Assembly (NCBI RefSeq): GCF_010093205.1
Contig: NZ_PDWN01000009.1
Span: 62,001-126,000, forward strand
Length of the DNA: 64,000 nucleotides
From: Pseudoxanthomonas daejeonensis
GTDB lineage: Bacteria; Pseudomonadota; Gammaproteobacteria; Xanthomonadales; Xanthomonadaceae
Direction of reading: 5' to 3'
Positions 29,680 through 64,000 of the stretch are shown piece after piece (the first letter of the stretch is position 1; every line of letters starts with the position of its first letter). Position numbers and translations under genes: made by a program. Below the pieces are notes generated by a model, which worked only from the letters and a program-made list of their open reading frames with translations, had not been told where the DNA came from and ran no database searches.

Positions 29680-29695
29680 TGCAAGCGGCGTGCCG
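29680..29695 (-). promoter_or_regulatory. Sigma-54 promoter of flgA
   Basis: Minus-strand CGGCACGCCGCTTGCA, with GG and GC ten bases apart. The predicted start is about 24 bases before the flgA GTG. It lies within the cheV/flgA divergent gap. Confidence 0.75.
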
Positions 29696-30750: not shown

Positions 30751-30766
30751 TGGCACGGCGCTTGCC
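30751..30766 (+). promoter_or_regulatory. Sigma-54 promoter of flgBCDEF
   Basis: TGGCACGGCGCTTGCC, a near-perfect sigma-54 site with GG-N10-GC. Transcription should start about 22 bases before the flgB ATG. FleQ, encoded at 49209, is the likely activator. Confidence 0.85.
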
Positions 30767-34900: not shown

Positions 34901-34917
34901 TGGCACGCCGCATGCAT
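34901..34917 (+). promoter_or_regulatory. Sigma-54 promoter of flgGHIJKL
   Basis: TGGCACGCCGCATGCAT: GG and GC are ten bases apart, with ATGC instead of TTGC. The predicted start is about 29 bases before the flgG ATG. It makes the second half of the flg genes a separate unit. Confidence 0.75.
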
Positions 34918-41970: not shown

Positions 41971-42007
41971 CGGCGCGATCGCTGCATGCCGCACCCCCTA
42001 TCCCCCT

Positions 42008-42393: not shown

Positions 42394-43218
42394 ATGGCAC
42401 AAGTCATCAACACCAACGTGATGTCGCTGAACGCGCAGCGCAACCTGTCCACCAACAGCGCAAGCCTGGCGACCACCATCCAGCGCCTGTCCTCGGGCCT
42501 GCGCATCAACAGCGCCAAGGACGACGCGGCCGGCCTGGCGATCAGCCAGCGCATGACCACCCAGGTCCGCGGCATGGACGTGGCCGCCCGCAATGCCAAC
42601 GACGGCATCTCGCTGGCCCAGACCGCCGAAGGCGCGCTGAGCTCGATCGGCGACAACATGCAGCGTATCCGCGAGCTGGCCGTGCAGGCCGCCAACGGCA
42701 CCAACAGCGCCGAGGACCGCAGCGCGCTGCAGAAGGAAGTCAAGCAGCTGTCCGACGAAATCACCCGCGTCAAGGACAACTCCAACTTCAACGGCACCAA
42801 GCTGCTGAACGGCTCGACCACCAGCTTCACCATCCAGGTCGGTGCCGACGCCGGCGCGGACAACCAGATCGCCATCAGCACGGTCGACATGAGCGCCACG
42901 GCCACCGCCGTCGCCGCCCTGGACATCTCCTCGGCCTCCGGCGCCACCGCCGCGCTGACCGCGATCGACACCCAGCTGCAGTCGGTCAACACCGCCCGCG
43001 CCGACCTGGGTGCCATCCAGAACCGCTTCAGCTCGGTGATCTCCAACCTGCAGACCAGCTCGGAGAACCTGTCGGCCGCCCGCAGCCGGATCCAGGACAC
43101 CGACTACGCCAAGGAAACGGCCGAGCTGACCCGCACCCAGATCCTGCAGCAGGCCGGTACGGCGATGCTGGCCCAGGCCAAGTCGGTTCCGCAGAACGTG
43201 CTGGGCCTGCTGCAGTAA
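42394..43218 (+). CDS. fliC: Flagellin FliC
   Basis: Filament subunit of 274 residues, short among flagellins. It has the N-terminal D0/D1 helices (MAQVINTNVMSLNAQRNLST), the C-terminal D1/D0 helices (ARSRIQDTDYAKETAELTRT, QILQQAGTAMLAQAKSVPQ, NVLGLLQ) and only about 60 residues between them, so D2/D3 domains are essentially absent. The flg22 region (residues 30 to 51) contains RLSSGLRINSAKDDAAG with Asp at position 43. Ser/Thr-rich surface stretches near residues 130 to 195 could be glycosylated. It has its own sigma-28 promoter and a terminator after it, so it is monocistronic. Confidence 0.97.
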   Translation: MAQVINTNVMSLNAQRNLSTNSASLATTIQRLSSGLRINSAKDDAAGLAISQRMTTQVRGMDVAARNANDGISLAQTAEGALSSIGDNMQRIRELAVQAANGTNSAEDRSALQKEVKQLSDEITRVKDNSNFNGTKLLNGSTTSFTIQVGADAGADNQIAISTVDMSATATAVAALDISSASGATAALTAIDTQLQSVNTARADLGAIQNRFSSVISNLQTSSENLSAARSRIQDTDYAKETAELTRTQILQQAGTAMLAQAKSVPQNVLGLLQ

Positions 43219-47391: not shown

Positions 47392-48819
47392 ATGAAAGCC
47401 AGCGTCTCGGTCCAGCTCGGCCAGCAACTGCACCTCACACCGCAGTTGCTCCAGTCCATCCGCCTGCTGCAGCTCGATGCGCAGCAATTGCAGATGGAAG
47501 TGGCCCGCGTGCTGGAGCAGAACCCGATGCTCGAGCTCGACGAGGAATCGAGCGCCGGCGACGCAGATGCAGGGAACGTGCCGGAAGGCGCGGCCGAACA
47601 GCAGCTCGAAACAGCCGCCTTCGACGAACTGCCCGAATCCTCGATGTGGGACGTGCCCGGCGCCAGCTGGAGCGGCGAAGGCGAAGACCGCATGCACCGC
47701 ATCGCCGAGCCCGGTTCCAGCGACCCGTGCGTGCGCGTGCTGCAGCGCCTGGAGCTGGAACTGGACAGCCGGCAGCTGGAAATCGCCGGCTTCTGGCTGG
47801 AGCACTGCGACGACGCCGGCTACCTCGACGGCGACCATGAAGCACTGCTGCTGCGCGCCTGCGCCCGCTTCGACGTGAGCGCCGAGCGGATCGAAGCGGT
47901 CCGCCAGCGCGTGCTGCACGGCGAGCCGGCCGGCATGGCCGCGCGCGACCTGCACGAATGCCTGCAGGCGCAACTGGCCGCGCTGCCGGCGCCGTGCGCC
48001 GGTCTCAACCTGGCCGTGCGCATCCTCGACCAGTGCCTGCCGGCGCTGGCCGCCCACGACCATGCGGCCATCGCCCGCCAGCTGCAGGCCGACGAAGGCG
48101 ACGTCGCCGAGGCCGTGCGGCTGGTGCTGTCGCTGCAGCCGCGCCCGGCGCAGGCCGAGGTCGACCCGGTCGATTCGGGCTACATCATTCCCGATGTGGT
48201 CGTGTGGCAGGCCGACCGCCAGTGGCGCGTGGCCCTGAATCCTGCGACCGCGCCGAAACTCTCGGTGAACGGCACCTACGAACGCGCCCTGGCCCAGTCC
48301 GGGGAAAGCGAAGGCAGCAGCCGCCTGCGCGAACTGCTGCAGGAAGCGCGCTGGCTGACCCGTGGCCTGTCGATGCGCTACGACACGCTGCTGCGCACCG
48401 CGCGCGTCATCGTCGAGCGCCAGGCCGCCTTCCTGGAGCGCGGCGACGAATGCATGGCCCCGCTCACGCTGAAGGAAGTCGCCGACGAGATCGGCATGCA
48501 CGAATCCACCGTCTCGCGCATCACCAGCGGCAAGTACGTGCAGACCCCGCGCGGCACCTTCGAGCTCAAGCACTTCTTCGCCGTGCGCCTGGAAGGCGCC
48601 AATGTCTCCGGCGCGGCGGTCAAGGCGATGGTGCGCCGGCTGATCGAGTCCGAACCGGCGGCGCGCCCGCTGGCCGACGACGCCATCGCCGCGCTGCTGG
48701 CCCGCCAGGGGGTGCACATCGCCCGGCGTACCGTGGCCAAGTACCGCGAACAGATGTCCATTGCCCCGGCGCGCGAGCGCCGCCGCGTCGCCGCCCCGCT
48801 GCTGGCCCGCGCGGGCTGA
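47392..48819 (+). CDS. rpoN: RNA polymerase sigma-54 factor RpoN
   Basis: Sigma-54 of 475 residues. Region I (QLGQQLHLTPQLLQSIRLLQ), the core-binding domain, the helix-turn-helix (MHESTVSRITSGKYVQTPRG) and the RpoN box (ARRTVAKYRE near residue 450) are all present. ATG 47392 with GGGGA upstream gives the standard MKASxxxQLGQ start. As it lies inside the flagellar cluster before fleQ, it matches the rpoN2 position of Xanthomonas. It should read the sigma-54 sites listed in this window. Confidence 0.96.
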   Translation: MKASVSVQLGQQLHLTPQLLQSIRLLQLDAQQLQMEVARVLEQNPMLELDEESSAGDADAGNVPEGAAEQQLETAAFDELPESSMWDVPGASWSGEGEDRMHRIAEPGSSDPCVRVLQRLELELDSRQLEIAGFWLEHCDDAGYLDGDHEALLLRACARFDVSAERIEAVRQRVLHGEPAGMAARDLHECLQAQLAALPAPCAGLNLAVRILDQCLPALAAHDHAAIARQLQADEGDVAEAVRLVLSLQPRPAQAEVDPVDSGYIIPDVVVWQADRQWRVALNPATAPKLSVNGTYERALAQSGESEGSSRLRELLQEARWLTRGLSMRYDTLLRTARVIVERQAAFLERGDECMAPLTLKEVADEIGMHESTVSRITSGKYVQTPRGTFELKHFFAVRLEGANVSGAAVKAMVRRLIESEPAARPLADDAIAALLARQGVHIARRTVAKYREQMSIAPARERRRVAAPLLARAG

Positions 48820-48831
48820 GGAGGAGTTCCC

Positions 48832-49208
48832 ATGCGCAACATCCGTGTCCTGCTGGTCGACGACCACGACGGCTTCATCAACGCCGCGATGCGCCACTTC
48901 CGCAAGGTCGAATGGCTGGAGATCGCCGGCACCGCCGGCAACGGCCTGGAAGCGATCGAACGTTCCGAGGCGCTGCGCCCCGATGCGATCCTGATGGACC
49001 TGGCCATGCCGGAGATGGGCGGGCTGCAGGCCACGCGCCTGATCAAGGCCCAGGACGACCCGCCCTACATCGTGATCGCCAGCCACTTCGACGATTCCGA
49101 GCACCGCGACCATGCCATGCGCGCCGGCGCCGACAGCTTCGTCAGCAAGCTGTCCTACCTGCAGGAAGTGATGCCGATCCTCGAGCGCCTGGCGCAAGGG
49201 AGCGCTCC

Positions 49209-49212
<4 letters not shown>
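48832..49212 (+). CDS. Single-domain response regulator
   Basis: Protein of 126 residues consisting only of a receiver: [15 protein letters not shown], phosphoacceptor Asp in [16 protein letters not shown] near residue 55, ASHFDDSEH and SFVSKLSYL with the conserved Lys. There is no output domain. It lies 12 bases after rpoN and its stop overlaps the fleQ start (GTGA), so it may tune RpoN or FleQ function or serve as a phosphate sink. The partner kinase is unknown. Confidence 0.88.
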
Positions 49213-50671: not shown

Positions 50672-50687
50672 GGGCACGCGCCTTGCA
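50672..50687 (+). promoter_or_regulatory. Sigma-54 promoter of the first glycan unit
   Basis: GGGCACGCGCCTTGCA, an excellent sigma-54 site 14 bases after the fleQ stop. The predicted start is about 63 bases before the GTG of the next gene. Confidence 0.8.
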
Positions 50688-50760
50688 TGACGGGAGCGGG
50701 CGCCCGCGCTGAGGCCGGTGCGCGCACGCATGGACCGCGCGGCACGAGGAGCGAGCGATA

Positions 50761-51783
50761 GTGGCAGGCCTGGAAATCGACATCGACCACCTGTTCCAGG
50801 CCGAACTGGGCAGCAGGTTCGTGCATGTGCGCCACCCGGGCGACGAAAACCTGATCCACCAGTCGCGGCGGGACGAAGGCGCGGGCGCGGCCCTGGCCCA
50901 CCTGTCCGGCCATGGCTTCCTCGTCTACAAGTTCGCCAGCGAAGGCGGTGCGGTCACGTCGTTCGTCCATGCCGCGATCGCGCCGGCATTCTGGGCGCGG
51001 CATACGGATTTCGGCCTGCGCGAGCACGGCGGCATCTGCTACAGGCTGGAGATGCCGGCGCACGGCGCCGCACGCCGCCTGCTGGTGATCTTCTCGAGCA
51101 TGTCGCAGGTCGACCAGATGTACGAGGCCGGTTTCTCGGCCCGCTATTTCATGCGCAACCTGAGCCAGGCGCCGAAGTACACGCCGCCGGATACCGCGAT
51201 CCTGCGGATCGCCGACCTCGGCGGCGTGGTCGGCGCGTTCTATACCGATACCCTCGCCCAGCCCGACAACGAGGCGCGGGTGTCCGCGCTCATCGCCAAG
51301 GTCATGGCCGACCTTGCCGTCGACCCGCGATACACCGTCCTGTACGGAACCTCCAAGGGCGCTTCCGGTGCCCTGCTGCACTCGCTGAGGACCGGGCTGA
51401 AGGCGGTCTGCGTGGAGCCGATCCTGTCGGACGACTACTACGTCAACCGCTACCGCGACTCGCACTTCACCCGCGGCCTGTTCCCGCGCGACAAGCGCGA
51501 ACTGTTCGCCGCCCACCTCTCGGCCGATGGCCCCGGGGCCGAGCGCGTGGTGGTCTATTCCAGCCGCTCGCCGCAGCTGCCCTACATCCGCGAGATCGCC
51601 ATGGACTCCCCGCGCGGCCGCGAAATGGCATTCATCGACGTGCAGAGCCCGACGATCATGGATCACCCCGACGTGGCGCCGGCCTCGCTCGGCCTCCAGG
51701 TCTCGCTGGTCAACCAGATGCTCTGCGGCGTCGAGGTCGGGGCGCACCAGCTCGATGCGCTGCGCGCATCGAACGCGGCCTGA
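50761..51783 (+). CDS. XcbB/CpsF-like capsule-type protein (alpha/beta-hydrolase fold)
   Basis: Protein of 340 residues without signal or membrane segments. The strand [20 protein letters not shown] and the elbow [17 protein letters not shown] near residue 195 (Ser nucleophile) indicate an alpha/beta-hydrolase fold, and overall it resembles the XcbB/CpsF group linked to capsule synthesis. The biochemical role of that group is not settled to my knowledge. Start GTG 50761 with AGGAG upstream. First gene of the sigma-54-driven unit with the methyltransferase. Confidence 0.65.
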
Positions 51784-51795
51784 CGGATCGCACCG

Positions 51796-52455
51796 ATGCA
51801 CGGCAACCCCCGCCTGGCCCCTGCCTTCCAGCGTGTCCGCGAACGCCTGCCAGGCGTGCCGGAACTGCGCACCCGCACCTTCGCCCCCGGCGAAGACCCC
51901 TGGTACAGCTACAAGCTCACCGCGCTGGACGAGGCGGTGCGCGGGGTTGGCCTGCCCGGCGATTTCCTCCAGCTGGGCGTCTACAAGGGCGAGTGCGCGC
52001 GCTTCCTGCACACGCGCATGTCCGCGGACCGGACGCTTTACCTGCTCGACAGCTTCGAGGGACTGCCCGAAGACTGGATGGGCCCGTGGAAGAAGGGTGC
52101 ATTCGCGCTTGGCGAAGGCGAGCTCCCCACCTTCGAGGCAGCCAACGTCGAGGTCGTGCCAGGCTGGTTCAGCGACACGATCGCCGGCGTCGCCGCGCGC
52201 CTGGACCAGCCGCTTGCCCTGCTCCACGCCGATGCGGACCTGTACAGCTCGACCTTCGAAGCGCTCGAGGGCCTGGATGCGCGGATCGCGCCCGGCACGG
52301 TGATCCTGTTCGACGAATATTTCATGCAGGCCGGCAACGACTTCCGCGACGACGAGCATCGCGCCCTCCTCGACTGGTGTACGCGCTGCGGGCGGGATTT
52401 CGAGTACCTGTGGAAGTCGGAGTGGGTGCAGGTCGCGGTCCGGGTCACCCGCTGA
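51796..52455 (+). CDS. TylF/MycF-type SAM-dependent methyltransferase
   Basis: Protein of 219 residues. The SAM motif is FLQLGVYKGECARFLHTRM near residue 56, followed by YLLDSFEGLPEDW and LLHADADLYSSTFEALEGL, the pattern of macrocin O-methyltransferase-like enzymes that methylate sugar hydroxyls using a metal. It lies 12 bases after the XcbB-like gene. A likely role is methylating a sugar of the surface or flagellar glycan. Confidence 0.8.
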   Translation: MHGNPRLAPAFQRVRERLPGVPELRTRTFAPGEDPWYSYKLTALDEAVRGVGLPGDFLQLGVYKGECARFLHTRMSADRTLYLLDSFEGLPEDWMGPWKKGAFALGEGELPTFEAANVEVVPGWFSDTIAGVAARLDQPLALLHADADLYSSTFEALEGLDARIAPGTVILFDEYFMQAGNDFRDDEHRALLDWCTRCGRDFEYLWKSEWVQVAVRVTR

Positions 52456-52478
52456 CGACAGCACCCGGCCGGGCGGCC

Positions 52479-52494
52479 CGGCACGCGGCTTGCA
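52479..52494 (+). promoter_or_regulatory. Sigma-54 promoter of the tagD unit
   Basis: CGGCACGCGGCTTGCA. Identical over 16 bases to the site before the aminotransferase at 58143. The predicted start is about 28 bases before the tagD-like ATG. Confidence 0.8.
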
Positions 52495-52533
52495 TGGTCC
52501 GGTGGGCATCGCCAAAGCCCTTCCGGAGTCCGC

Positions 52534-52926
52534 ATGACCATCGTCCTGACCTACGGCACCTTCGACCTGCTCCACGTCGGCCACGTCAACCTGCTGCGGC
52601 GCGCACGGGCCCTGGGCGACACCCTCCTGGTCGGCCTGTCCTCTGACAGCTTCAACGCGATCAAGCACAAGCGCGCGACCCAGAGCTACGCCGACCGCGA
52701 AGCGGTGCTGCGCGCGATCCGCTACGTCGACGATGTCTTTCCCGAGGACGCCTGGGAGCAGAAGGCCGGCGACATCCGCCGCTACGGCGCCGACGTCCTG
52801 GTGATGGGCTCGGACTGGCTCGGCCATTTCGACGAGCTCGCCCGCTACTGCGAAGTCCGCTACCTGGCGCGCACCGAGAACATCTCCAGTTCCTCGCTGA
52901 AAGCCAGCATCCGCGCCGTGCAGTAA
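52534..52926 (+). CDS. tagD: Glycerol-3-phosphate cytidylyltransferase-like (TagD)
   Basis: Enzyme of 130 residues, the size of TagD. The nucleotidyltransferase signatures are GTFDLLHVGHVNLLRRA near residue 8 and the end motif TENISSSSLKASIR, comparable to ISTTxIK. TagD-type enzymes make CDP-glycerol, the donor for TagF-type polymerases; close relatives make CDP-ribitol or other CDP-alcohols. The next gene and the gene at 59345 carry TagF-like domains, which supports CDP-glycerol. Confidence 0.87.
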   Translation: MTIVLTYGTFDLLHVGHVNLLRRARALGDTLLVGLSSDSFNAIKHKRATQSYADREAVLRAIRYVDDVFPEDAWEQKAGDIRRYGADVLVMGSDWLGHFDELARYCEVRYLARTENISSSSLKASIRAVQ

Positions 52927-52954
52927 CCCGCCCTGCACCCACGACGGCATCCCG

Positions 52955-55900
52955 ATGGACGACCACAGCAGATCCCACGACTCCGCCCCGGCCATCGAGG
53001 CCGGTGCGGGGCACGCCACGACCGGCACGGACACCGTGCCGGCGTGGTTCGACGCCGCCTTCTACCAGGCGCACAACCCGGACGTCGCCGGCGGCGCGAA
53101 CGCGGCCTGGCGCCACTTCCGCAGCGATGGCTGGCGCGAATTCCGCAACCCCGCCGCCGGCTTCGACCTGTGGTGGTACCAGGCCGCGCACCTGGAAGGC
53201 GACCATCGCCGCGATCCGGTCGCCCACTACCTCGGCAGCGGCCACGCCGCCGGGCTGGAGACCACGCTGGCCTGCGGCGAACGGCTGGACGTGGCGCGCA
53301 AGACCCAGTTCAACCTGCGCACCCTGGCCCTGCTCGACGGACTGCAGGCGGCAGGCACGGTGTTCGGTCGCATCGCCGCCAACCTCGCGCAGTTGCGCCT
53401 GTGGGACGTGGCCGACATGTTCGCCGTGCGCGCCTGCGAACTGGAGCCCGAGGTGGCCGCGCACCACGCCCTGCTCGGTGCGATCGTGGCCAAGCGCAAC
53501 GGCTGGCGCCGGGTGGTGACGGCCATGCGCGCGGCGACCACGCTGGAGGATGGGCGTGCCGACTGGTTCCACGCGCTGGGCCTGGCCTGCGAACGCCTCG
53601 GCTGGCTGGACGACGCGGCCGGCGCCTACGCAAGCGCGCTGGCGCTCGACGGCGGCGACGCCGACACCCACTACCGGCTCGGGCGGATCGAGGAACAACG
53701 TGGGCGCATCGATGCCGCCGAGGCCTGCTATGTGCGGGTCATGGCGACGGACCCCGAGGTCGCGATGCTGGGAATCGGCCTGCGCCACGAGCGCGAGAAG
53801 GACTGGACCGGCGCCGAGCGCGCCTACCGGTTGCGCCTGGCCGACCCGGCCCATGCGGCAAACGCCCGCCTGCATTTCGCGCACGGCTACCTGCTCGAGA
53901 CGCTTTACCGCTGGGAGGAAGCCGCGGATGCCTACGCGAACGCGCTCGCCCTGGAACCGGAGCAGGCCGGGTGGCACTACCGCCGCGGCTGGATGCTCGA
54001 GCGCCTGGAGCGTCCCGCGGAGGCAGCCACGGCCTACGCGTGCGCGCTGGCGCGGCAGGAAGACGCCGACTGGCGCTACCGCCAGGGCACGTGCCTCCAC
54101 GCCGCAGGCGAGACCGATGCGGCGATCGACGCATGGCTGCGCTGCGTGCCGGAAGAGCCGCCGTTCGCGCCGCCCAGCAGCGTCGACGATGCGGCGCGGC
54201 GCAATGCCCTGCTCGGCGACCTGCAGGCGCGCACGACCGATCCCCACCTTCATTTCGAACTGGGCCTGGCGTGCGAGCGCCTGGGCCTGCATGCCGAAGC
54301 CGCCGCGGCCTACCGCGCCGGCATCGACCGCCACGATGCGCACGCGCCGCGCTGGAATTTCCGCCTGGGCGTCGTCCTGCATCGCGCCGGTCGCGGTGCC
54401 GAAGCGTGCCACGCCTTCCTGGCCACCCGCCTGTTCCGGCGCGATTTCGACATCGTCCCCGAAGCGGCGGCTGTCGAAGGCCAGCCACTGCCGGCGCGCG
54501 ACATCAAGCTGGAGTACGCCGAGTTCATCGAGACCTTGCCGGTCCGCGACGAGGTCGTGCTCTACGAGAGCTTCCACGGCGACTCGGTGAGCTGCAACCC
54601 GCTGGCCGTGTTCCGCGCCGCGCGCGAGCGCCTGGCCGGACGCGACCTGCTGCACGTGTGGGCGGTCAAGCCGCACGCGGCCATTCCCGAAGACCTGGCC
54701 GCGATGCCGGACGTGGTCTTCGTGCAGCACGGCAGCCCGCTGTATGCGCGCTACCTGGCCACCGCCGGCTGGCTGGTCAACAACAACACCTTCATGCCGT
54801 ACTTCGTGCGACGGCCGGAGCAGCGCTACCTCAACACCTGGCATGGGACCCCGCTGAAGAAGCTGGGCATCGACATCCCCGGGGCGCTGTTCGACCACAA
54901 GAACGCGCTGCGCAACCTGCTGCAGGCCACCCACGTCGCGATGCCCAACGCCTTCACCCGCAAGACGCTGCTGGCCTCCATGCAGGTGGAGGACGTGATC
55001 GGCGCCCGCATCGCCGACACCGGCCAGGCGCGGATCGACCTCATGCTCGGCGCCGACGCCGAGGCGCGCGCACGGCTGAAGGCGCGGCTGGGCCTGGCCG
55101 CGGACGCGAAGGTCATCCTGTACGCCCCGACCTGGCGCGGCAGCCTCGACGGCGCCTCGCTGGACGCGGCGCTGGTGTCCGAAGCGATCGCACGCCTGGC
55201 CGGCCACGGCGCGCGCGTGCTGTTCAGCGGCCACCACATGGTCGCGCGCACGCTGGGCCCGCTGCCCGACGGCGCGATGGCCGTTCCCGCCGGCATGGAC
55301 ATCACCGAGCTGATGTCGGTGGTGGACGTGCTGGTCACCGACTACTCCTCGATCCTGTTCGATTTCCTGCCCAGCGGTCGTCCGGTGCTGCTGTACGTGC
55401 CGGACCTCGAGCAGTACCGCCGCGAGCGCGGCCTGTACCTCGATCCGGACAGCCTTCCAGTGCGGGCCTGCGCCACCCCCGATGCGCTTGAACAGGCACT
55501 CGCCGCGGCCCTTGGCGGAGCGGCGGTCGCCGGGGCGGCGGCCGAGGCGGCGCGCCGGGATTACTGGCCGCTGGAAGACGGTGGATCGGCCGCACGCACC
55601 GTCGCGTTCTTCTTCGAGGACGACACGCGCCACGTGGTCCCCCGGGCACCGCGCAGCAAGCGCACCCTGCTCTTCCAGGTCGGCAACTTCAGTCCCAACG
55701 GCGTGACTGCCTCGTTCAACCGGCTGGCCGGCTCGCTGGACCCGTCGCGCGTGTCGGTCACGGTGACCGTCGATCCGTGGACCCTGGAAAGCTACCCGCC
55801 GCGCCTGGAGCGCTTCGCCGAGCTGCCCGCGCACGTGGCGCGCTGGGGCCGGATCAGCTACCCGGTGGCCAACCGCGAGCAGCAGTGGCTCAGCGCACGC

Positions 55901-56845
55901 CAGGGCGGCCGGGAGGTGCTCAACGCACGCCAGCTGCGCCTGCTCGACACCTACTACGTGCGCGAGTACGCACGCCAGTTCGGCAGCGCCGACTTCGACG
56001 TGGTGGTCGACTTCTCGGGCTACGCCGCGTTCTGGACCGCGCTGTTCGCGCGCGGCCGCCCGGCCGGGACGCGCTGCGCGGTCTACCTGCACAACGACAT
56101 GGACCAGGAGCTGCGCAGCCGCCATCCGCAACTGGCCAAGGTGTTCGAGCAGTACCCGTTGTGCGACGCGCTCGTCTCGGTTTCCGACAGCCTCGATGCG
56201 GTCAACCGGCGCCGCTTCGCCGGTGCGCCGGGGCAGCAGCCCGACCGCTTCCACAGCGTGGAGAACTGCATCGACCCCGGTTTCATCCGCGCCCGCGCCG
56301 GGCAGGAGCTGCCGCCGGGGCTGGCACGCTGGCGCGAAGGCCACATGCTGCTGGGCACGGTCGGCCGGCTGTCGCCGGAGAAGGGCCATCGCCGCCTGCT
56401 CGACGCGTTCGCCCGGGTGCGGCGCGCGCATCCGGCCGCGCGCCTGGTGATCGTCGGCGAGGGGCCGGAGCGGCCGGTGCTGCAGCAGCGCATCGCCGAG
56501 CTGGGACTGGAAGACGACGTGCTGCTCACCGGTGCGCTCGCCAATCCCTATCCGCTGATGCGCGAGCTCGACCTGTTCGTGCTGTCGTCGCACTACGAGG
56601 GCCAGGGCATCGTCCTGCTGGAGGCCTTGACCCTCGGCCGGCCGGTGCTGTCGACCGACATCCCCGGCCCGCAGAGCGTGCTGGCCGATGGCGCCGGACA
56701 ACTGGTCGCCGATTCCACCGATGGCCTGGCCGAGGGAATGTGCGCCTGGCTGGACCGCCCGCAGGCGGGCCCCGCCTGGGACGCGGATGGATATTCGCGG
56801 CGGGCGCTGGCCCGGTTCGAGCGCGCCGTGGCGGGCATCGACTGA
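52955..56845 (+). CDS. TPR - CDP-glycerol glycerophosphotransferase - GT4 fusion protein
   Basis: Protein of 1296 residues. The first part has WFDAAFYQAHNPDV and VAHYLGSGHAAG, a repeat common at the start of large glycosyltransferases, then TPR-like helices to about residue 510. A TagF/CDP-glycerol:glycerophosphotransferase domain spans about 530 to 890 (YESFHGDSVSCNPLAVF, TWHGTPLKKLG near 628, VTDYSSILFDF near 795). A GT4 glycosyltransferase ends the protein (VGRLSPEKGHRRLLDAF near 1135, SSHYEGQGIVLLEAL). Joining polyol-phosphate transfer and sugar transfer in one chain suggests alternating units. No membrane segments are seen. It lies 28 bases after tagD. Confidence 0.9.
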   Translation: MDDHSRSHDSAPAIEAGAGHATTGTDTVPAWFDAAFYQAHNPDVAGGANAAWRHFRSDGWREFRNPAAGFDLWWYQAAHLEGDHRRDPVAHYLGSGHAAGLETTLACGERLDVARKTQFNLRTLALLDGLQAAGTVFGRIAANLAQLRLWDVADMFAVRACELEPEVAAHHALLGAIVAKRNGWRRVVTAMRAATTLEDGRADWFHALGLACERLGWLDDAAGAYASALALDGGDADTHYRLGRIEEQRGRIDAAEACYVRVMATDPEVAMLGIGLRHEREKDWTGAERAYRLRLADPAHAANARLHFAHGYLLETLYRWEEAADAYANALALEPEQAGWHYRRGWMLERLERPAEAATAYACALARQEDADWRYRQGTCLHAAGETDAAIDAWLRCVPEEPPFAPPSSVDDAARRNALLGDLQARTTDPHLHFELGLACERLGLHAEAAAAYRAGIDRHDAHAPRWNFRLGVVLHRAGRGAEACHAFLATRLFRRDFDIVPEAAAVEGQPLPARDIKLEYAEFIETLPVRDEVVLYESFHGDSVSCNPLAVFRAARERLAGRDLLHVWAVKPHAAIPEDLAAMPDVVFVQHGSPLYARYLATAGWLVNNNTFMPYFVRRPEQRYLNTWHGTPLKKLGIDIPGALFDHKNALRNLLQATHVAMPNAFTRKTLLASMQVEDVIGARIADTGQARIDLMLGADAEARARLKARLGLAADAKVILYAPTWRGSLDGASLDAALVSEAIARLAGHGARVLFSGHHMVARTLGPLPDGAMAVPAGMDITELMSVVDVLVTDYSSILFDFLPSGRPVLLYVPDLEQYRRERGLYLDPDSLPVRACATPDALEQALAAALGGAAVAGAAAEAARRDYWPLEDGGSAARTVAFFFEDDTRHVVPRAPRSKRTLLFQVGNFSPNGVTASFNRLAGSLDPSRVSVTVTVDPWTLESYPPRLERFAELPAHVARWGRISYPVANREQQWLSARQGGREVLNARQLRLLDTYYVREYARQFGSADFDVVVDFSGYAAFWTALFARGRPAGTRCAVYLHNDMDQELRSRHPQLAKVFEQYPLCDALVSVSDSLDAVNRRRFAGAPGQQPDRFHSVENCIDPGFIRARAGQELPPGLARWREGHMLLGTVGRLSPEKGHRRLLDAFARVRRAHPAARLVIVGEGPERPVLQQRIAELGLEDDVLLTGALANPYPLMRELDLFVLSSHYEGQGIVLLEALTLGRPVLSTDIPGPQSVLADGAGQLVADSTDGLAEGMCAWLDRPQAGPAWDADGYSRRALARFERAVAGID

Positions 56846-56846
56846 C

Positions 56847-58133
56847 GTGTCCGGGCCGATCAACGTACTGGTGTTCCCCTGCGGCTCGGAGATCGGGCTG
56901 GAGGTCAACGCCGCGCTGCGGTACGCCAAGGACGTGCGCCTGCATGGCGCGTCCTCGGTCGACGACCACGGCGAATTCGCCTATCGCAGGTATCGCCGGA
57001 TCGATGCCGACACGGTCGACGGCGACCTGGTCGGCGCGCTGAACGCGCTGATCCGCGAATGGGACATCGACCTGGTCGTGCCCGCGCACGACAGCGTCAT
57101 CCCGCTGCTGGCCTGCGCGCGCGAACGCCTGCTCGCCCCGGCCGCGGTGCCGGATGCGGACACCGCCGCGCTGTGCCGCGACAAGCGCCTGGCCCACGCG
57201 CGCCTGCGCCCGCTGGGCATCGTCCCCGACGACGCCGGCGCGCCGGGCGGCGCGTACCCGGTATTCGCCAAGCCGGCCATCGGCCAGGGCAGCCAGGGCG
57301 CCGAGCGGGTCGATGATGTCCTGCGGCACCGGCAGTTGCTGGAGGGCACCACGCCCTACGTGATCAGCGAGTACCTGCCGGGCGACGAATACACCGTGGA
57401 TTGCGTGTCCGACGGCGATGGCGTGCTGCTGCATGCCGCGCCGCGGCGAAGGAGCCGGGTCAGGAACGGGATCAGCGTGCGCACCGAACCGGCCACCGGC
57501 GACCCCGCGCTGGCCGCGATGGCCACGGCGATCGCCGGCGAGCTGCGCCTGCGCGGCGCATGGTTCTTCCAGGCGCGGCGCGACGCCGACGGCGTGCCCA
57601 AGCTGCTGGAGGTCGCGCCGCGTATCGCCGGTTCGATGGCGCTGTCGCGGGTGCGCGGCGTCAACCACGCCCTGCTCCACGTCTACGCCCACCTGGGCCG
57701 CCCGTTCGCGGTGCTGCCGCAGTCGCATCCGGTGCAGCTCGACCGCGCGCTGGGCAACCGCTACCGCGCCACGCTGGACTACCGCCGGGTCTACCTGGAC
57801 CTGGACGACACCCTGATCGTGGACGGGGCGGTCAACCCGGTACTCGCCGGCCTGCTCTACCAGTGGGCCGCCGCCGGCATCGAGATGGTGCTGCTGACCC
57901 GCCACGCAGGCTGCCCGCACCAGGCCCTGGCCCGGCACCGGGTGTGCGCGGACCTGTTCAGCCGCATCGTGCACCTGCGCGACGGCTCGCCCAAGAGCGC
58001 GGCGATCGAGACGGGCGTGCCGGCGATCTTCATCGACGACTCCTTCCGGGAGCGGCAGGACGTCCACCGGGTCGCCGGAATCCCAGTGTTCGACCCGGAC
58101 GCCATCGAGCAGCTGCTGGACCTGCGTGCCTGA
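56847..58133 (+). CDS. ATP-grasp - HAD fusion protein
   Basis: Protein of 428 residues. The first 310 residues are an ATP-grasp ligase of the carbamoyl-phosphate-synthase type (YPVFAKPAIGQGSQGAERV, PYVISEYLPGDEYTVDCVSD, LLEVAPRIAGSMALSR). From residue 315 a HAD domain starts with VYLDLDDTLI and continues LLTRHAGCPHQAL and AIFIDDSFRER. The ligase may form an amide or peptide-like bond on a sugar or polyol; the HAD part may be a phosphatase. Start GTG 56847, one base after the previous stop, so it is coupled to the TPR/TagF/GT4 gene. Confidence 0.82.
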   Translation: MSGPINVLVFPCGSEIGLEVNAALRYAKDVRLHGASSVDDHGEFAYRRYRRIDADTVDGDLVGALNALIREWDIDLVVPAHDSVIPLLACARERLLAPAAVPDADTAALCRDKRLAHARLRPLGIVPDDAGAPGGAYPVFAKPAIGQGSQGAERVDDVLRHRQLLEGTTPYVISEYLPGDEYTVDCVSDGDGVLLHAAPRRRSRVRNGISVRTEPATGDPALAAMATAIAGELRLRGAWFFQARRDADGVPKLLEVAPRIAGSMALSRVRGVNHALLHVYAHLGRPFAVLPQSHPVQLDRALGNRYRATLDYRRVYLDLDDTLIVDGAVNPVLAGLLYQWAAAGIEMVLLTRHAGCPHQALARHRVCADLFSRIVHLRDGSPKSAAIETGVPAIFIDDSFRERQDVHRVAGIPVFDPDAIEQLLDLRA

Positions 58134-58142
58134 GCCCCGCGA

Positions 58143-58158
58143 CGGCACGCGGCTTGCA
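58143..58158 (+). promoter_or_regulatory. Sigma-54 promoter of the aminotransferase unit
   Basis: CGGCACGCGGCTTGCA, 10 bases after the stop of the ATP-grasp/HAD gene. The predicted start is about 51 bases before the ATG at 58221. Confidence 0.8.
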
Positions 58159-58220
58159 TCGACCGGACACGAGGCCCGCAAGGCGAGCCGCGCTCCTTCC
58201 GCCGCATCGAAGCCGCCCGG

Positions 58221-59348
58221 ATGAATGCCAAGCCCATCCAAGTCACCAGCCCGCTGCTGCCTCCCCTCGAGGAGTTCGTCCCGTACCTGGAGCGGATCTG
58301 GGAAAGCCGGATCCTGACCAACGGCGGCAGCATGCATCAGGCGCTCGAAAAGGCGCTGTGCGCCTACCTGGGCGTGGAGCACATCGCCCTGTTCGCCAAC
58401 GGCACCCTGGCCCTGGTCACCGCGCTGCAGGCGCTGCGCATCACCGGCGAGGTGATCACCACCCCGTACTCGTTCGTGGCCACGGCCCATTCGCTGCTCT
58501 GGAACGGGATCAAGCCGGTGTTCGTCGACGTCGACCCGGTCACCTACAACCTGGACCCGGCCAAGGTCGAGGCGGCGATCACCCCGCAGACCACCGCGAT
58601 CCTTCCGGTGCACTGCTACGGCACGCCCTGCGACGTGGACGGCATCGACCGGATCGCCGAGAACTACAACCTGAAGGTCATCTACGACGCCGCCCACGCG
58701 TTCGGCGTGCGCGACGGGCGCGGCAGCGTGCTGCGCCACGGCGACCTGTCGGTGCTCAGCTTCCATGCCACCAAGGTGTTCAACACCTTCGAGGGCGGGG
58801 CCATCATCTGCCCCGACGCGCGTACCAAACAGCGCATCGACCACCTCAAGAACTTCGGCTTCGTCAACGAGACCACCGTGGTCGCGCCGGGCATCAACGG
58901 CAAGATGAACGAGGTCTGCGCCGCGTTCGGCCTGCTCCAGCTCAAGCACATCGACCACGCGCTCGCCCGGCGCGCGCAGATCGACGGACTCTACCGGCGC
59001 CTGCTGACCGGCGTGCCCGGCCTGCGCAGCCTGCGCCCGCCGGCCGGCGTGACGGGCAACCACGCCTACTTCCCGCTGATGGTCGGCGAGGAGTACGCGC
59101 TGCAGCGGGACCAGCTGTACCAGCTGCTGCGCGATCAGAAAGTCCTCGTGCGGCGCTATTTCTACCCGCTCATCAGCGAATTCCCGATGTACCGGGGCCT
59201 GCCTTCGGCCGCTGCGGGCAACCTGCCGGTGGCCAGCACCGCCGCGCGCCAGGTGTTGTGCCTGCCGATCCACCCGGAACTGGCGGACGAGGACGTCATG
59301 CGCATCTGCGACCTGGTCACCGCGCCGGCACGGGTACGGGCGGCGTGA
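58221..59348 (+). CDS. DegT/DnrJ/EryC1-family aminotransferase
   Basis: PLP-dependent enzyme of 375 residues that aminates keto sugars or related substrates. The PLP lysine is in SFHATKVFNTFEGGAI at Lys185; other marks are ALFANGTLALVTALQAL, TTPYSFVATAHSLLWNG, AAHAFG and the C-terminal RRYFYPLISEFPMYRGL. Such enzymes make amino sugars used in flagellin glycans and O antigens. Its stop overlaps the next start (GTGA). Confidence 0.92.
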   Translation: MNAKPIQVTSPLLPPLEEFVPYLERIWESRILTNGGSMHQALEKALCAYLGVEHIALFANGTLALVTALQALRITGEVITTPYSFVATAHSLLWNGIKPVFVDVDPVTYNLDPAKVEAAITPQTTAILPVHCYGTPCDVDGIDRIAENYNLKVIYDAAHAFGVRDGRGSVLRHGDLSVLSFHATKVFNTFEGGAIICPDARTKQRIDHLKNFGFVNETTVVAPGINGKMNEVCAAFGLLQLKHIDHALARRAQIDGLYRRLLTGVPGLRSLRPPAGVTGNHAYFPLMVGEEYALQRDQLYQLLRDQKVLVRRYFYPLISEFPMYRGLPSAAAGNLPVASTAARQVLCLPIHPELADEDVMRICDLVTAPARVRAA

Positions 59349-60646
59349 GCGGGCCGGTGCGCATGCCGCCATGGCGGCGACGGATCGTGCACGCATGGCT
59401 CGGCGTGCCCCTGCTCGCCCTGTGGCGGGTGTTCGACCTGCTGGTGCCCAAGCGGATGGACCGCTGGGCGTTCTTCGTGCATCCGCTCAAGCCGGGCCAG
59501 TTCACCGAGAATGCGCGCGCGGTGTACGAGCACGTCAGGCACGACCCCTCGATCGAGCGCTGGATCTTCGTGCGGGGCGGCTACCGCCCGCCGGGGCTGG
59601 AAGAATCGGCCCATACCCGCGTGCAGGACCTGGACACGCTGGCCGGCCTGTGGGCCCTGGCCCGCTGCGGCGTGCTGCTGCTGACCAATTCGACGAGCCT
59701 GGACATGTCCATGGCGTGGAAGGGCGGCGGCTATTCGGCGCCGCGGCCCTGGCTGCGCCGGCGCGTGGTGGTCAACCTGTGGCATGGGATCCCGCTCAAG
59801 CGCCTGTTCGCCATGGCCAACCCCGCGCAGCGACGGAACGGCGACCGCAACCGCTTCCGCCGCCGCGAGCGCCGCCATTACGACGGCCTGGTCGCCTCCT
59901 CGCCGGTCGATGGCCATGCGATGGCCACGATCTTCCACCCGCTGCCGCCTTCCCGGGTCTGGGTGACCGGGCTGCCGCGCACCGACTTCCTGCGCATGGA
60001 TGAAGCCGTCCTGCCGGATTGCCTGCGCGAGGAACTGCTGCGCGTGCGCGCGCTGCGCGACGGCCGGCGCCTGGTCCTGTATGCGCCGACCTACCGCGAC
60101 GCCAGCGTCGCCCACGAGCGCTGCTACCGGTTCAGCGACATCGAAGTGCAACGCCTGAAGCGGCTGCTCGCCCGCCACGACGCGGTGCTCGGCGTGCGCG
60201 GCCACTACCTGGCCAACGCGCCATCGCCATTCGACCGCGACCGCGACCTCGACGGCCGCATCTTCGAGCTGGAACACGACGCCTTCCACGAGATCGCCCC
60301 GCTCCTGCGCCAGAGCGCGGTCGTGCTCACCGATTACTCGTCGGTGTATATCGATGCGCTGTACCTGGAACTGCCGGTGGTGAGCTTCGCCTGGGACGCG
60401 GACCACTTCCGCGACCACCAGAACGGCCTGCTCTACGACATGGACCTGGCCTTCCCCGGCCCGGTCGCCACCGATTTCGACGCCTTGCTGGCCGCACTCG
60501 ACGCGGCGCTTTCCCGTCCGGCGAATCATCCCGACCCGCACTACTGCATGGTGCGGCGGATGTTCTTCCAGCATGACGACAGCGCCAATTCGCATCGCCT
60601 GGTCGAGCGCCTGCGCCAGGCCGTGGCCGCGCGGGGCGCACGATGA
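59345..60646 (+). CDS. CDP-glycerol glycerophosphotransferase family protein (TagB/TagF-like)
   Basis: Protein of 433 residues. Signatures are NLWHGIPLKRLFAM near residue 144, SSPVDGHAMATIF, LYAPTYRDASVAHERCYRFS and VVLTDYSSVYIDALYLELPV near residue 329. A short hydrophobic N-terminal stretch (VHAWLGVPLLALWRVFDLLV) may attach it to the inner membrane, as TagB/TagF attach peripherally. It is the second TagF-like domain in the island. Start GTG 59345 overlaps the aminotransferase stop, and its own stop overlaps the next start (ATGA). Confidence 0.88.
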   Translation: MSGPVRMPPWRRRIVHAWLGVPLLALWRVFDLLVPKRMDRWAFFVHPLKPGQFTENARAVYEHVRHDPSIERWIFVRGGYRPPGLEESAHTRVQDLDTLAGLWALARCGVLLLTNSTSLDMSMAWKGGGYSAPRPWLRRRVVVNLWHGIPLKRLFAMANPAQRRNGDRNRFRRRERRHYDGLVASSPVDGHAMATIFHPLPPSRVWVTGLPRTDFLRMDEAVLPDCLREELLRVRALRDGRRLVLYAPTYRDASVAHERCYRFSDIEVQRLKRLLARHDAVLGVRGHYLANAPSPFDRDRDLDGRIFELEHDAFHEIAPLLRQSAVVLTDYSSVYIDALYLELPVVSFAWDADHFRDHQNGLLYDMDLAFPGPVATDFDALLAALDAALSRPANHPDPHYCMVRRMFFQHDDSANSHRLVERLRQAVAARGAR

Positions 60647-63600
60647 GCGACGGCGGGCAGGCACCCTCCACCGCCGCCGCGCTGGTCAGCGTGGTGATGC
60701 CGGCCTACAAGGCCACCTGGCTGGGGCAGGCACTGGAAAGCGTGCGCAGGCAGACCCATCGCCCGCTCGAACTGGTGGTCTGCGACGACTCGCGCGACGA
60801 CCGGGTCCAGGCGCTGGTCGAGGCGTTCGCCGCCACCGCCGGCTTCCCGGTGCACTATTCGCGCAACCCCTCGCGCCTGTGGGAGACGCGCAGCACCGCG
60901 CGCGCCATCGCGCTCGCATCCGGCGAGTACATCAAGTTCCTGCACGACGACGACGTGTTGCACGACGGCTGCATCGCCGCGCTGGTCGACGCGTTCGCGC
61001 GCGCGCCCGACGCGGTGCTCGCCACCGCGCGGCGGCGGCGGGTCGACAGTAACGGCGCGCTGTTGCCGGACACGCCGGCCACCGCCTTCCCGCGCCGGGA
61101 CCTGCTGCTGGACGGCCACGACCTGGTCGATTTCCTCGCCGACCGCACGATCAACTTCCTCGGCGAACCGAGCGCGGTCATGTGCCGGCGTGCGCCGCTG
61201 CTGGAGATGGGCGACGACCTGCCGGTGCTGGATGGCGTGCGCGTCGCCTGGGTCGCCGACCTGGCCCTGTACGCCAAGTTGCTGCGTCGTGGCCCGGTGG
61301 CGATGCTCGGCACGGCGCTGCTCGACTTCCGCGTCTCGCGCCAGCAGTTCAGCCAGGCCGGGCGGGACCGGCCAGGCGTCGGAGATCCGGGCCACGAGGC
61401 GTTCCGCCACGGCATCCGCGCGCTGGGCTGGTATCGCGGCGACCGCGACACGCGCATGGTCGCGGCGGCCCCCCTGGACCGTTCCGTGCCCGCAGAACCG
61501 CTCGACCTGGTGCAGGCGCTGGAGGACGCGCACGCGGCCGGCCTGGGCCAGTGGCAGAAGCACGACTGGCAGGCCCGCCGTCGCCTCCTGCCGGCGCAGG
61601 CGCTGCTTTACGACGCACACCTGGCAAGCCTGCCGGGCCTGCCGGTACTGGGCGTGCTGGTGGTCCCCGACGCGCGCGCGCCGGACGGACTCCGCACCAC
61701 GCTTTCGAGCCTGGCCACCCACGCGCCCGCGCAGGCGCGCATCGATGTCCGCGTGGCCGGTGATGCGACGCTGCCGGCAGACGCACCGATGCCCGCGCAA
61801 GCGGTGACCTGGCAACCGGGCGCGACCGCCGCCTCGCTCGATGCCGCGCTCGCCGGCTGGGACGTGGACTGGGTGCTGGTGGTCGAGGCCGGCAGCGAGT
61901 TCACCGGCAGCGGCCTGCGTCGCCTGCTGCCCGAGCTGGCCACGGCCGGGGGCCTGCAGGCGCTCTACGCCGACGAGTGGTATCGCGACGACGACGGCCA
62001 CATCGCGCCGGCGCTGCGGCCGGATTTCAACCTCGACCTCCTGCTCGGCAATCCGGCCGCAATGGCCGGGCACTGGATCTTCCGCCGCCAGTGCGTGCGA
62101 GATGCGGGCGGGTTCGATCCGGCACACGAAGGCGCGGCGGAGCTGGACCTGATCCTGCGCCTGGTCCTGCGGCACGGGCTGGCCGGCTTCGGCCACCTGG
62201 CCGAACCCCTGCTGTCCTGCGCGCCACCGCGCCTGGCCGACGAGGCGCAGCGCGGCGCGATCCTCCGGCACCTGCATGAGCGCGGCTATTCCGCGGCGAC
62301 CGTGACCGGCTGCGCCCCCGGCCTGCACCGCATCGACTACGGACACGAAGGGCAGCCGGCGGTGTCGATCATCGTGCTGGCCGGCGATGCGCTGGCACCG
62401 CTGGAGCGCTGCGTGCTGTCGGTGCTGGAAAACACCGCCTGGCCGCACTACGAGCTGGTGCTGGTCGACCGTGGCGCTCCGGCCAGCCTGCGCCAATGGA
62501 TGGACCAGGTCGTTCCGCTCGCCGCCGGCCGGGTCCGCGTGGTCGATGCCGGCGCCGGCACGTCGCCTGCCGCCGCCCGCAACCTCGCGGCGGAATCGTT
62601 GGCCGATGGATTCGTGCTGTTCCTCGATGCCGAAGCCGCCGTGCTGGACCCCCGATGGCTGCACGGCCTGCTCAACCATGGCCAGCGTCCCGAGGTCGGC
62701 ATTACTGGGGCCAAGACGGTTGCCGCCAACGGCACCATCACCCATGCCGGACTGGTACCGGGGTTGCATGCCGGCAGGGGACGCGTGTTCGCTGGCCAGC
62801 CGGTCGGCGCAGGCGGCTACATGGGCCGGCTGCAGGTGGCGCAGGACTACGCCGCCGTCTCAAGCAGCTGCATGCTGGTCGAGCGCGAAGTATTCGCGGC
62901 GCTCGGCGGCTTCGACGCCGATGCCTTTCCGGACCAGGGCTCCGACGTCGACCTGTGCCTGCGCGCCGGTGCGGCCGGCCGCCTCACCGTGTGGACCCCC
63001 GACGCGCTGCTGCTGCATGCGGCCGATGCCGCGGCCACCGACGCCCCGACGCAGCAAGCGCTTTACGCACGCTGGCTTCCGGTGCTGGCGCGCGACCCGG
63101 CCTACAACCCGAACCTGCGCCTGGACGTGCCCGGCGGCTTCGAACTCGAGGAGACCGCCCTCTCCCGCCGGCCCCTGCCCGCCGGCCTGCTGCCCCGCGT
63201 GCTGGCCCAGCCCAGCGACGCCCATGGCAGCGGCCACTACCGCGTGTTGCAGCCGTTCCTGGCGCTGCAGGCGGCGGGCCTGGTCGAAGGCGCCGCGCCG
63301 CCGCGCGCACTCGACGTGGTGGAGGTCGAACGCTTCAGCCCCGACGTGATCGTGATGCAGCGCCGCGTCGGCGAAGAGGACATCGCGCGCATGGCCCGCC
63401 TGCGGCGCTTCTCGCCGGCCTTCAAGGTCTACGAGCTGGACGATTGGCTGCCCGACCTGCCGGCGCGCAACATCCATCGCCGGCACATGCCGCGCGATGT
63501 AGGCGAACGGCTGCGGCGCGGCCTGGCCCAAGCCGACCGCTTCGTGGTCTCCACCCAGCCGTTGGCCGAGGCCTGTCGCGGCTGGCACCCGGACATCCGC

Positions 63601-64000
63601 GTGGTCGAGAACCGGCTCGATCCGCGCTTGTGGACCGGCCTGCCCGCGACGGCGCGCAAGCCGGGCGCCAGGCCGCGGGTCGGCTGGGCCGGCGGGGTCA
63701 GCCACGATGGCGACCTGGCGATGATCGCCGACGTCGTCCAGGCGCTGGCCGGCGAGGTGGACTGGGTGTTCTTCGGCATGTGTCCCGAGCAGTTGCGGCC
63801 GCACGTGGCCGAGTTCCATCCCGGCGTGCCGATCGGCGCATACCCGCGGGTGCTGGCCGCGCTTGGCCTGGACCTGGCGCTGGCGCCGCTCGAAGACCAT
63901 CCTTTCAACACCTGCAAGAGCAACCTGCGCCTGCTCGAATACGGCGCCTGCGGCTATCCGGTCGTGTGCAGCGACCTGTTGCCCTATCGCGGCGACCTGC
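60643..64000 (+). CDS. Large multi-domain glycosyltransferase (partial, runs off the window)
   Basis: Open frame from ATG 60643 to the window end, at least 1119 residues. It begins with a GT2 domain (VSVVMPAYKATWLGQALESV, FLHDDDVLHDG near 100), continues with two more GT2-like units (ALYADEWYRDDDGHIAPALR near 445; VSIIVLAGDALAPLERCVLS near 575, SSSCMLVEREVFAALGGFDA), and then a GT1/GT4-like region (VYELDDWLPDLPARNIHRRH, FVVSTQPLAEACRGWHPDIR, VGWAGGVSHDGDLAM near 1012). It overlaps the previous stop (ATGA). It probably assembles several sugars of one glycan. The C terminus is not seen. Confidence 0.9.
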   Translation, partial: MSDGGQAPSTAAALVSVVMPAYKATWLGQALESVRRQTHRPLELVVCDDSRDDRVQALVEAFAATAGFPVHYSRNPSRLWETRSTARAIALASGEYIKFLHDDDVLHDGCIAALVDAFARAPDAVLATARRRRVDSNGALLPDTPATAFPRRDLLLDGHDLVDFLADRTINFLGEPSAVMCRRAPLLEMGDDLPVLDGVRVAWVADLALYAKLLRRGPVAMLGTALLDFRVSRQQFSQAGRDRPGVGDPGHEAFRHGIRALGWYRGDRDTRMVAAAPLDRSVPAEPLDLVQALEDAHAAGLGQWQKHDWQARRRLLPAQALLYDAHLASLPGLPVLGVLVVPDARAPDGLRTTLSSLATHAPAQARIDVRVAGDATLPADAPMPAQAVTWQPGATAASLDAALAGWDVDWVLVVEAGSEFTGSGLRRLLPELATAGGLQALYADEWYRDDDGHIAPALRPDFNLDLLLGNPAAMAGHWIFRRQCVRDAGGFDPAHEGAAELDLILRLVLRHGLAGFGHLAEPLLSCAPPRLADEAQRGAILRHLHERGYSAATVTGCAPGLHRIDYGHEGQPAVSIIVLAGDALAPLERCVLSVLENTAWPHYELVLVDRGAPASLRQWMDQVVPLAAGRVRVVDAGAGTSPAAARNLAAESLADGFVLFLDAEAAVLDPRWLHGLLNHGQRPEVGITGAKTVAANGTITHAGLVPGLHAGRGRVFAGQPVGAGGYMGRLQVAQDYAAVSSSCMLVEREVFAALGGFDADAFPDQGSDVDLCLRAGAAGRLTVWTPDALLLHAADAAATDAPTQQALYARWLPVLARDPAYNPNLRLDVPGGFELEETALSRRPLPAGLLPRVLAQPSDAHGSGHYRVLQPFLALQAAGLVEGAAPPRALDVVEVERFSPDVIVMQRRVGEEDIARMARLRRFSPAFKVYELDDWLPDLPARNIHRRHMPRDVGERLRRGLAQADRFVVSTQPLAEACRGWHPDIRVVENRLDPRLWTGLPATARKPGARPRVGWAGGVSHDGDLAMIADVVQALAGEVDWVFFGMCPEQLRPHVAEFHPGVPIGAYPRVLAALGLDLALAPLEDHPFNTCKSNLRLLEYGACGYPVVCSDLLPYRGDL

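Follow-up and report, generated by a model that had tools for sequence, protein, structure and literature searches.

Near-identical sigma-54 sites at the unit heads of a putative flagellar glycosylation island between fleQ and fliE in Pseudoxanthomonas daejeonensis

What switches on a set of putative glycan genes that interrupts a flagellar gene cluster, and what might their product decorate? The question is raised by a 64-kb stretch of the Pseudoxanthomonas daejeonensis genome (contig NZ_PDWN01000009.1, positions 62,001 to 126,000; the whole stretch is called the window here), in which an island of eight genes in three units sits between fleQ and fliE, directly 3' of fleQ. We consider it likely that three sites in this island are sigma-54 promoters that place a filament-glycosylation island in the flagellar regulon, probably in its early (class II) tier.

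The initial annotation had described GG-N10-GC elements with CACG and TTGCA flanks at 50672, 52479 and 58143. A search for the exact sigma-54 core GGCACG-N4-TTGC (both strands; the lowest coordinate of the 14-base core is given) returned all three among the five exact cores of the window, at 29681 (minus strand), 30752, 50673, 52480 and 58144. Identity between the last two island sites extends over 17 bases, one more than the 16 first counted, and the likeness to the flgA and flgB sites stands, as the same exact core is present at all five.

50672..50687, plus strand: sigma-54 -24/-12 site A, GGGCACGCGCCTTGCA, 89 bp 5' of the XcbB/CpsF-family gene start
52479..52495, plus strand: sigma-54 site B, CGGCACGCGGCTTGCAT, 55 bp 5' of the cytidylyltransferase gene start
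58143..58159, plus strand: sigma-54 site C, the same 17 bases as B, CGGCACGCGGCTTGCAT, 78 bp 5' of the aminotransferase start
29680..29695, minus strand: sigma-54 site of flgA, CGGCACGCCGCTTGCA, exact core
30751..30766, plus strand: sigma-54 site of flgB, TGGCACGGCGCTTGCC, exact core about 50 bp 5' of flgB (30799)
34901..34916, plus strand: sigma-54-like site 5' of flgG, TGGCACGCCGCATGCA, resembling the X. citri flgG site (PMC6637908)

That the sites head the three units was borne out. The island has gaps of 103, 78 and 87 bp, each of which holds one perfect core, and these are its only gaps longer than 30 bp; the core scan gave no site at the five other gene junctions, which measure at most 28 bp or overlap. 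Sites A, B and C lie on the sense strand a short distance 5' of start codons, with the invariant GG and GC ten bases apart in each. Compared with the sigma-54 consensus printed as YTGGCACGrNNNTTGCW (PMC6637908), GGCACG and TTGCA are perfect at all three, whereas the base 5' of the GG is G, C and C, respectively, instead of T; a C at this position is also common in the fliE sites of relatives. Judged by every sequence mark, A, B and C are well-supported candidate sigma-54 promoters of the flagellar kind.

The whole 3.56-Mb genome contains 15 exact cores, versus seven for the pattern read backwards. The suggested enrichment at flagellar genes was evident with the exact pattern, without a weight matrix: seven of the 15 fall within the 41.6-kb flagellar stretch (binomial P = 1.8e-10), three of them in the 13.5-kb island (P = 2.4e-5). 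Two exact cores of the flagellar stretch lie beyond the window and precede fliE and fliL, and one-mismatch sites were found upstream of flgG, flhB, flhA and flhF. The island sites share a flagellar sub-consensus with those of fliE, fliL and flgA.

To see how such intervals look in relatives, 247 genomes of the family were searched for FleQ. Of these, 135 gave a match at E <= 1e-80 (the weaker matches include some other activators), and the stretch 3' of fleQ was taken in 80 of the 135, mostly the best matches. Both fleQ and fliE were present in 72; the remaining eight have no fleQ-to-fliE interval within the stretch. In four relatives (L056, L075, L092 and L115; G and L numbers denote relatives, g numbers genera) fliE was not found within the 20-kb stretch starting at fleQ, perhaps because the island is larger there or the genes are arranged differently. 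Among the 72, the interval spans 166 bp to 17.9 kb (33 below 800 bp, nine of 800-1900 bp, four of 1.9-5 kb and 26 of 5-18 kb). Islands occur at this position in several genera, and their cargo differs even within one genus (G010 and G172 versus the window). An island of the window's kind is present in Stenotrophomonas acidaminiphila JCM 13310. As a local positive control, the fliE site reaches at least 10/12 in 71 of the 72 and 9 in the remaining one.

For the islands of the relatives, one mismatch to the core was allowed. The 30 islands of at least 1.9 kb have 54 intergenic sites in sense and 6 in antisense orientation (3 and 5 for the backwards pattern), and inside genes 19 and 24 (13 and 10). 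In the 26 islands of at least 5 kb, a sense site is present in 39 of 86 gaps before genes and an antisense site in none (backwards pattern 0 and 1); the gaps counted are of 45-350 bp, longer ones being left out as genes were possibly missed there. All five genera with such islands contribute site-bearing gaps (g1 3/6, g7 23/45, g17 9/29, g29 2/3, g44 2/3), although the genomes are related and the counts are not independent events. The g17 counts are rough because some islands of this genus (L093, L095, L100 and L103) contain long stretches in which no genes were called; these may be foreign DNA of other composition that the gene caller missed, or decayed genes.

The sites follow genes more than places. 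This emerged when each gene was scored for a site of at least 10/12 within 250 bp upstream, a level that random 250-bp windows reach in 8%; only matches of at least 40% identity and 55% coverage entered the count. The aminotransferase gene is preceded by a site in 30 of 30 relatives, one of them weaker and distant (10/12 at -237), both where the gene adjoins fleQ (22/30) and where it lies 0.8-7.7 kb farther on (8/30). The G188 aminotransferase, a 27% paralogue, is outside these 30, and L050 was left out as it shares a contig with L072. The cytidylyltransferase gene has a site in 6/7 relatives and the XcbB gene in 2/2; for the genes internal to the window's units the counts are 0/7 (ATP-grasp), 0/4 (TPR fusion) and 0/3 (TylF). 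The second phosphotransferase gene has a site in 2/7 (L048 and L075); both sites are weak and, at 125 and 140 bp upstream of the gene, coincide with the expected end of the aminotransferase gene before it. In eight genomes, all eight flagellar-locus aminotransferases carry the site (11-12 of 12), and none of three paralogues outside the flagellar locus (including that of L164) has one within 250 bp.

In a FleQ tree of 31 rows the genus of the window is monophyletic (100/100), whereas the aminotransferase tree (21 rows, distant paralogue removed) rejects this genus (approximately unbiased test, p = 5e-6), and g44 and g7 as well, so that module histories cross genera. In this second aminotransferase tree G188 and nine near-identical rows were dropped; L048 (Pseudoxanthomonas sp. 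NC8), which has partial matches, is in neither tree. Transfer is the simplest reading, although old variants kept or lost in different lines would give the same picture.

The surrounding gene order is flagellin, fliD, fliS, further genes, a LuxR-type response regulator, rpoN, a VemR-like receiver gene, fleQ, the island, fliE and fliF. The end of the window cuts the island, whose last gene continues to C37:126176; next comes fliE, which also has such a sigma-54 site. The eight island genes are as follows.

50761..51783, plus strand: XcbB/CpsF-family protein, unit 1 (NCBIfam NF033892, 2.1e-72; PDB 9hvz, 1.9e-42)
51796..52455, plus strand: TylF-type methyltransferase, unit 1
52534..52926, plus strand: relative of TagD-like glycerol-3-phosphate cytidylyltransferases, unit 2 (TIGR01518; PDB 2b7l, 1coz)
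52955..56845, plus strand: fusion of TPR, CDP-glycerol (CDP, cytidine diphosphate) glycerophosphotransferase domain and GT4 glycosyltransferase, unit 2
56847..58133, plus strand: ATP-grasp ligase with a C-terminal HAD-like stretch, unit 2 (DxDxT by eye only)
58221..59348, plus strand: DegT/DesI-like nucleotide-sugar aminotransferase, vioA counterpart, unit 3
59345..60646, plus strand: second protein with a glycerophosphotransferase domain, unit 3
60643..64000 and on to C37:126176, plus strand: large GT2 glycosyltransferase, 1177 aa, unit 3

According to our proposal, a 4-keto-6-deoxy sugar activated with deoxythymidine diphosphate (dTDP) and supplied by the genome's RmlB would receive an amino group from the DesI/VioA-like enzyme. 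The ATP-grasp, TylF and XcbB/CpsF proteins would modify the sugar, and the cytidylyltransferase together with the two phosphotransferase domains would extend it with groups activated by CDP. The large GT2 enzyme would then move the glycan onto flagellin before export, all island enzymes acting in the cytoplasm. RmlB (dTDP-glucose 4,6-dehydratase) is encoded elsewhere in the genome, so the aminotransferase, the only DegT aminotransferase of the genome at E <= 1e-30, could be fed. The cytidylyltransferase, 90% identical to its best named match in Pseudoxanthomonas sp. NC8, is the genome's sole hit to the TagD model at E <= 1e-3. The only two strong glycerophosphotransferase domains of the genome are likewise those of the island, a third match being weak. 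The C-terminal piece of the ATP-grasp protein gave no Pfam match; the DxDxT motif is typical of HAD phosphatases. Solved structures exist for the XcbB/CpsF family (50761-51783); ACoA appears as a label in one molecule name, a hint of acyl transfer.

Several results, concerning the site counts as well as the donor, acceptor, regulator and timing, weigh against a flagellar filament island and are given here together with the rival explanations. In the relatives' islands of at least 5 kb, 47 of the 86 gaps are without a site. A 22-column weight matrix made from the fliE sites of 33 island-free genomes passed eight island sites in 39 loci, all sense and between genes, where 0.1 are expected; as this matrix is too strict, the core pattern with one mismatch was used, and both results are given. 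The GT2 gene has a site in 14 of 30 relatives and lacks one in 16, some of which closely follow another gene; it was rejected as a constant promoter carrier for this reason.

As for the acceptor, the glycan could be a capsule, a lipopolysaccharide or another envelope polymer that is co-regulated with motility, a rival we regard as unlikely. In its favour, capsules and wall polymers are where XcbB/CpsF and TagD-like proteins are typically met, and no covariation was seen between islands and flagellin. As for the donor, the cytidylyltransferase scores 152.7 bits to TIGR01518, under the cut-off of 165.4, so that the donor is not settled. The flagellin gene of the window is the following:

42394..43218, plus strand: flagellin, 274 aa, probable acceptor, preceded by a sigma-28-like site and a weaker sigma-54-like one

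With 274 residues and a central part of about 40, this flagellin is short, most of the 29 genomes scored (of 30; G206 left out) having 375-432 residues. The short form also occurs in G203, G043, G060, G194 and G172, of which G060 and G194 are island-free, and flagellin length does not follow island presence. Central Ser/Thr content, with the central part cut by fixed offsets, has means of 0.24 in 11 island genomes and 0.22 in 14 without (p = 0.14; four of the 29 genomes, with intervals of 0.8-5 kb, were set aside). On the other hand, none of the eight island genes encodes a domain of a flippase, polymerase or exporter, and none of the products is clearly a membrane protein at a threshold of 1.6 (the ATP-grasp protein has one marginal stretch at 1.63, whereas FlhA, FlhB and FliP have four to seven), which suits cytoplasmic glycosylation. 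The insertion at the same fleQ-fliE place in several genera and the flagellin-glycosylation precedent in X. oryzae (PMC8657755) likewise argue against an envelope polymer, and we infer that flagellin is the target.

Even if A, B and C do act as sigma-54 promoters, they might be driven by a different activator or by the second RpoN (C1) in response to a non-flagellar signal, which appears improbable to us. As initially annotated, rpoN and fleQ lie just upstream of the island; a VemR-like receiver gene sits between them.

47392..48819, plus strand: rpoN (rpoN2-like), RpoN box present
48832..49212, plus strand: single-domain response regulator in the vemR position, named after PMC6637908
49209..50657, plus strand: fleQ, sigma-54 activator with the GAFTGA loop

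With two RpoN genes and five strong activator genes in the genome, four of the latter in addition to fleQ, the RpoN-activator pairing is not fixed by sequence. The FleQ-like box of the P. aeruginosa type is GTCA-N6-TGAC. Allowing up to two mismatches, this box, which may not be that of the present family, is not enriched near the sites (9/11 segments versus 314/400 random ones). Against a non-flagellar signal stand the sub-consensus that the island sites share with fliE, fliL and flgA, their position next to fleQ, and the equivalent X. oryzae island, where gigx1-gigx10 are under RpoN2/FleQ control (PMC8657755). By analogy, the flagellar RpoN and FleQ would drive the island sites. In X. citri there is no co-transcription across the fleQ-vioA junction (PMC6637908), which suits a separate promoter after fleQ. 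As a side observation, the flgG site (34901-34916) has ATGC in place of TTGC and resembles the flgG site of X. citri, where flgG is co-regulated by VemR (PMC6637908); in the window the VemR-like gene (48832-49212) is the one between rpoN and fleQ.

That the sites are chance matches in DNA of 70% G+C, or functionless copies of one element, is hardly credible and was rejected on placement and conservation: eight exact cores do lie outside the flagellar stretch, five within called genes and three not (two of these with a sense gene start within 90 bp), but the island sites stand in sense orientation in the unit-head gaps, cores cluster genome-wide, and sites precede the same genes across genera.

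With respect to timing, upstream regions were compared with a sigma-28 consensus. The island gaps reach only 6-7/12 for a sigma-28-like site, as does random DNA, whereas the regions upstream of fliC and fliD reach 10/12, a score attained by 3-4% of random segments of the same length. The flagellar schedule may therefore have two tiers. This distribution fits the three-tier scheme of X. oryzae, in which GigX1-10 belong to class II and FliC to class III (PMC8657755). However, fliC also has a weaker sigma-54-like site (10/12 at 41971), and RpoN2 binds the fliC promoter in X. campestris (PMC7280030), so the order of island before flagellin is blurred and not settled. The island probably belongs to the early (class II) tier, with its enzymes expected in the cell ahead of flagellin synthesis or during it. 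The proposed flagellar schedule stands in part: flagellar-kind sigma-54 marks occur at the unit heads, but neither enrichment of a FleQ-like box nor covariation with flagellin accompanies them. The glycan is very probably made while the cell builds its flagellum.

How does this island compare with known systems? A flagellin-glycosylation island of X. oryzae pv. oryzae, gigX, was reportedly described by Yu et al. 2018 and is said to include acyl-carrier and acyl-synthase genes. None of the eight island genes has an acyl-carrier or acyl-synthase Pfam domain. Both have a nucleotide-sugar aminotransferase of the VioA type and a large glycosyltransferase, in an island directly after fleQ. In the window, however, the aminotransferase is in the third unit, there are three near-identical promoters, one per module, and a CDP-type cytidylyltransferase, two glycerophosphotransferase domains, XcbB/CpsF, TylF and ATP-grasp proteins are encoded. 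A further likeness is the control of a flagellin-glycosylation gene set by RpoN2/FleQ, which is predicted here and reported for gigX (PMC8657755). In X. citri and X. campestris, vioA adjoins fleQ (PMC6637908, PMC7280030), as does the aminotransferase gene in 22 of the 30 relatives.

A second comparison concerns the b-type cluster of Pseudomonas aeruginosa PAO1 (PA1088-PA1091) and the Type A cluster of Clostridioides difficile, which combine a methyltransferase, a nucleotidyltransferase, a phosphotransferase and GT2, the nucleotidyltransferase being proposed to make a CDP donor (PMC11833859). The same kinds of enzymes, likened by domain kind only, occur together in the window, which adds the aminotransferase, ATP-grasp, XcbB/CpsF and TPR-GT4 fusion proteins. 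A glycan with an amino acid in phosphodiester linkage on flagellin is characteristic of the PAO1 and C. difficile systems. Teichoic-acid and capsule genes (TagD, TarF, XcbB/CpsF) belong to the same families as the cytidylyltransferase, the glycerophosphotransferases and the first island gene, but the island lacks a polymer exporter domain, lies between flagellar genes and has promoters of the flagellar type.

Sigma-54 control of a flagellin-glycosylation gene set is already known from gigX (PMC8657755). In the open-licence papers searched, we found in print neither a layout of one promoter per module across genera nor glycerophosphotransferase genes in such flagellar islands. New by that measure are the cargo rich in phosphotransferases (CDP-type cytidylyltransferase, two glycerophosphotransferase domains, XcbB/CpsF and TylF), the one promoter per module and the cross-genus module histories. 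The island seems to be built of swappable, self-switched modules. We tentatively suggest that fleQ-fliE is the family's plug-in slot, that modules bring their own sigma-54 promoters, and that the cargo of the window writes a teichoic-acid-like, phosphodiester-linked filament decoration from CDP donors.

If this holds, a module arriving from another genus would be on the flagellar clock at once, independent of its new neighbours, and the near-identical promoters would serve as the interface through which genera can exchange filament coats. Modules carrying their own flagellar promoters would account for the replacement of one filament coat by another with the order of assembly left intact, and filament-glycan genes could then be recognised by a simple sequence signature. 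The cargo points to a phosphate-linked glycan on flagella of bacteria other than P. aeruginosa and C. difficile. The sigma-54 control reported for such an island in one rice pathogen appears here in several genera of the family, in a design that outlives the replacement of its cargo.

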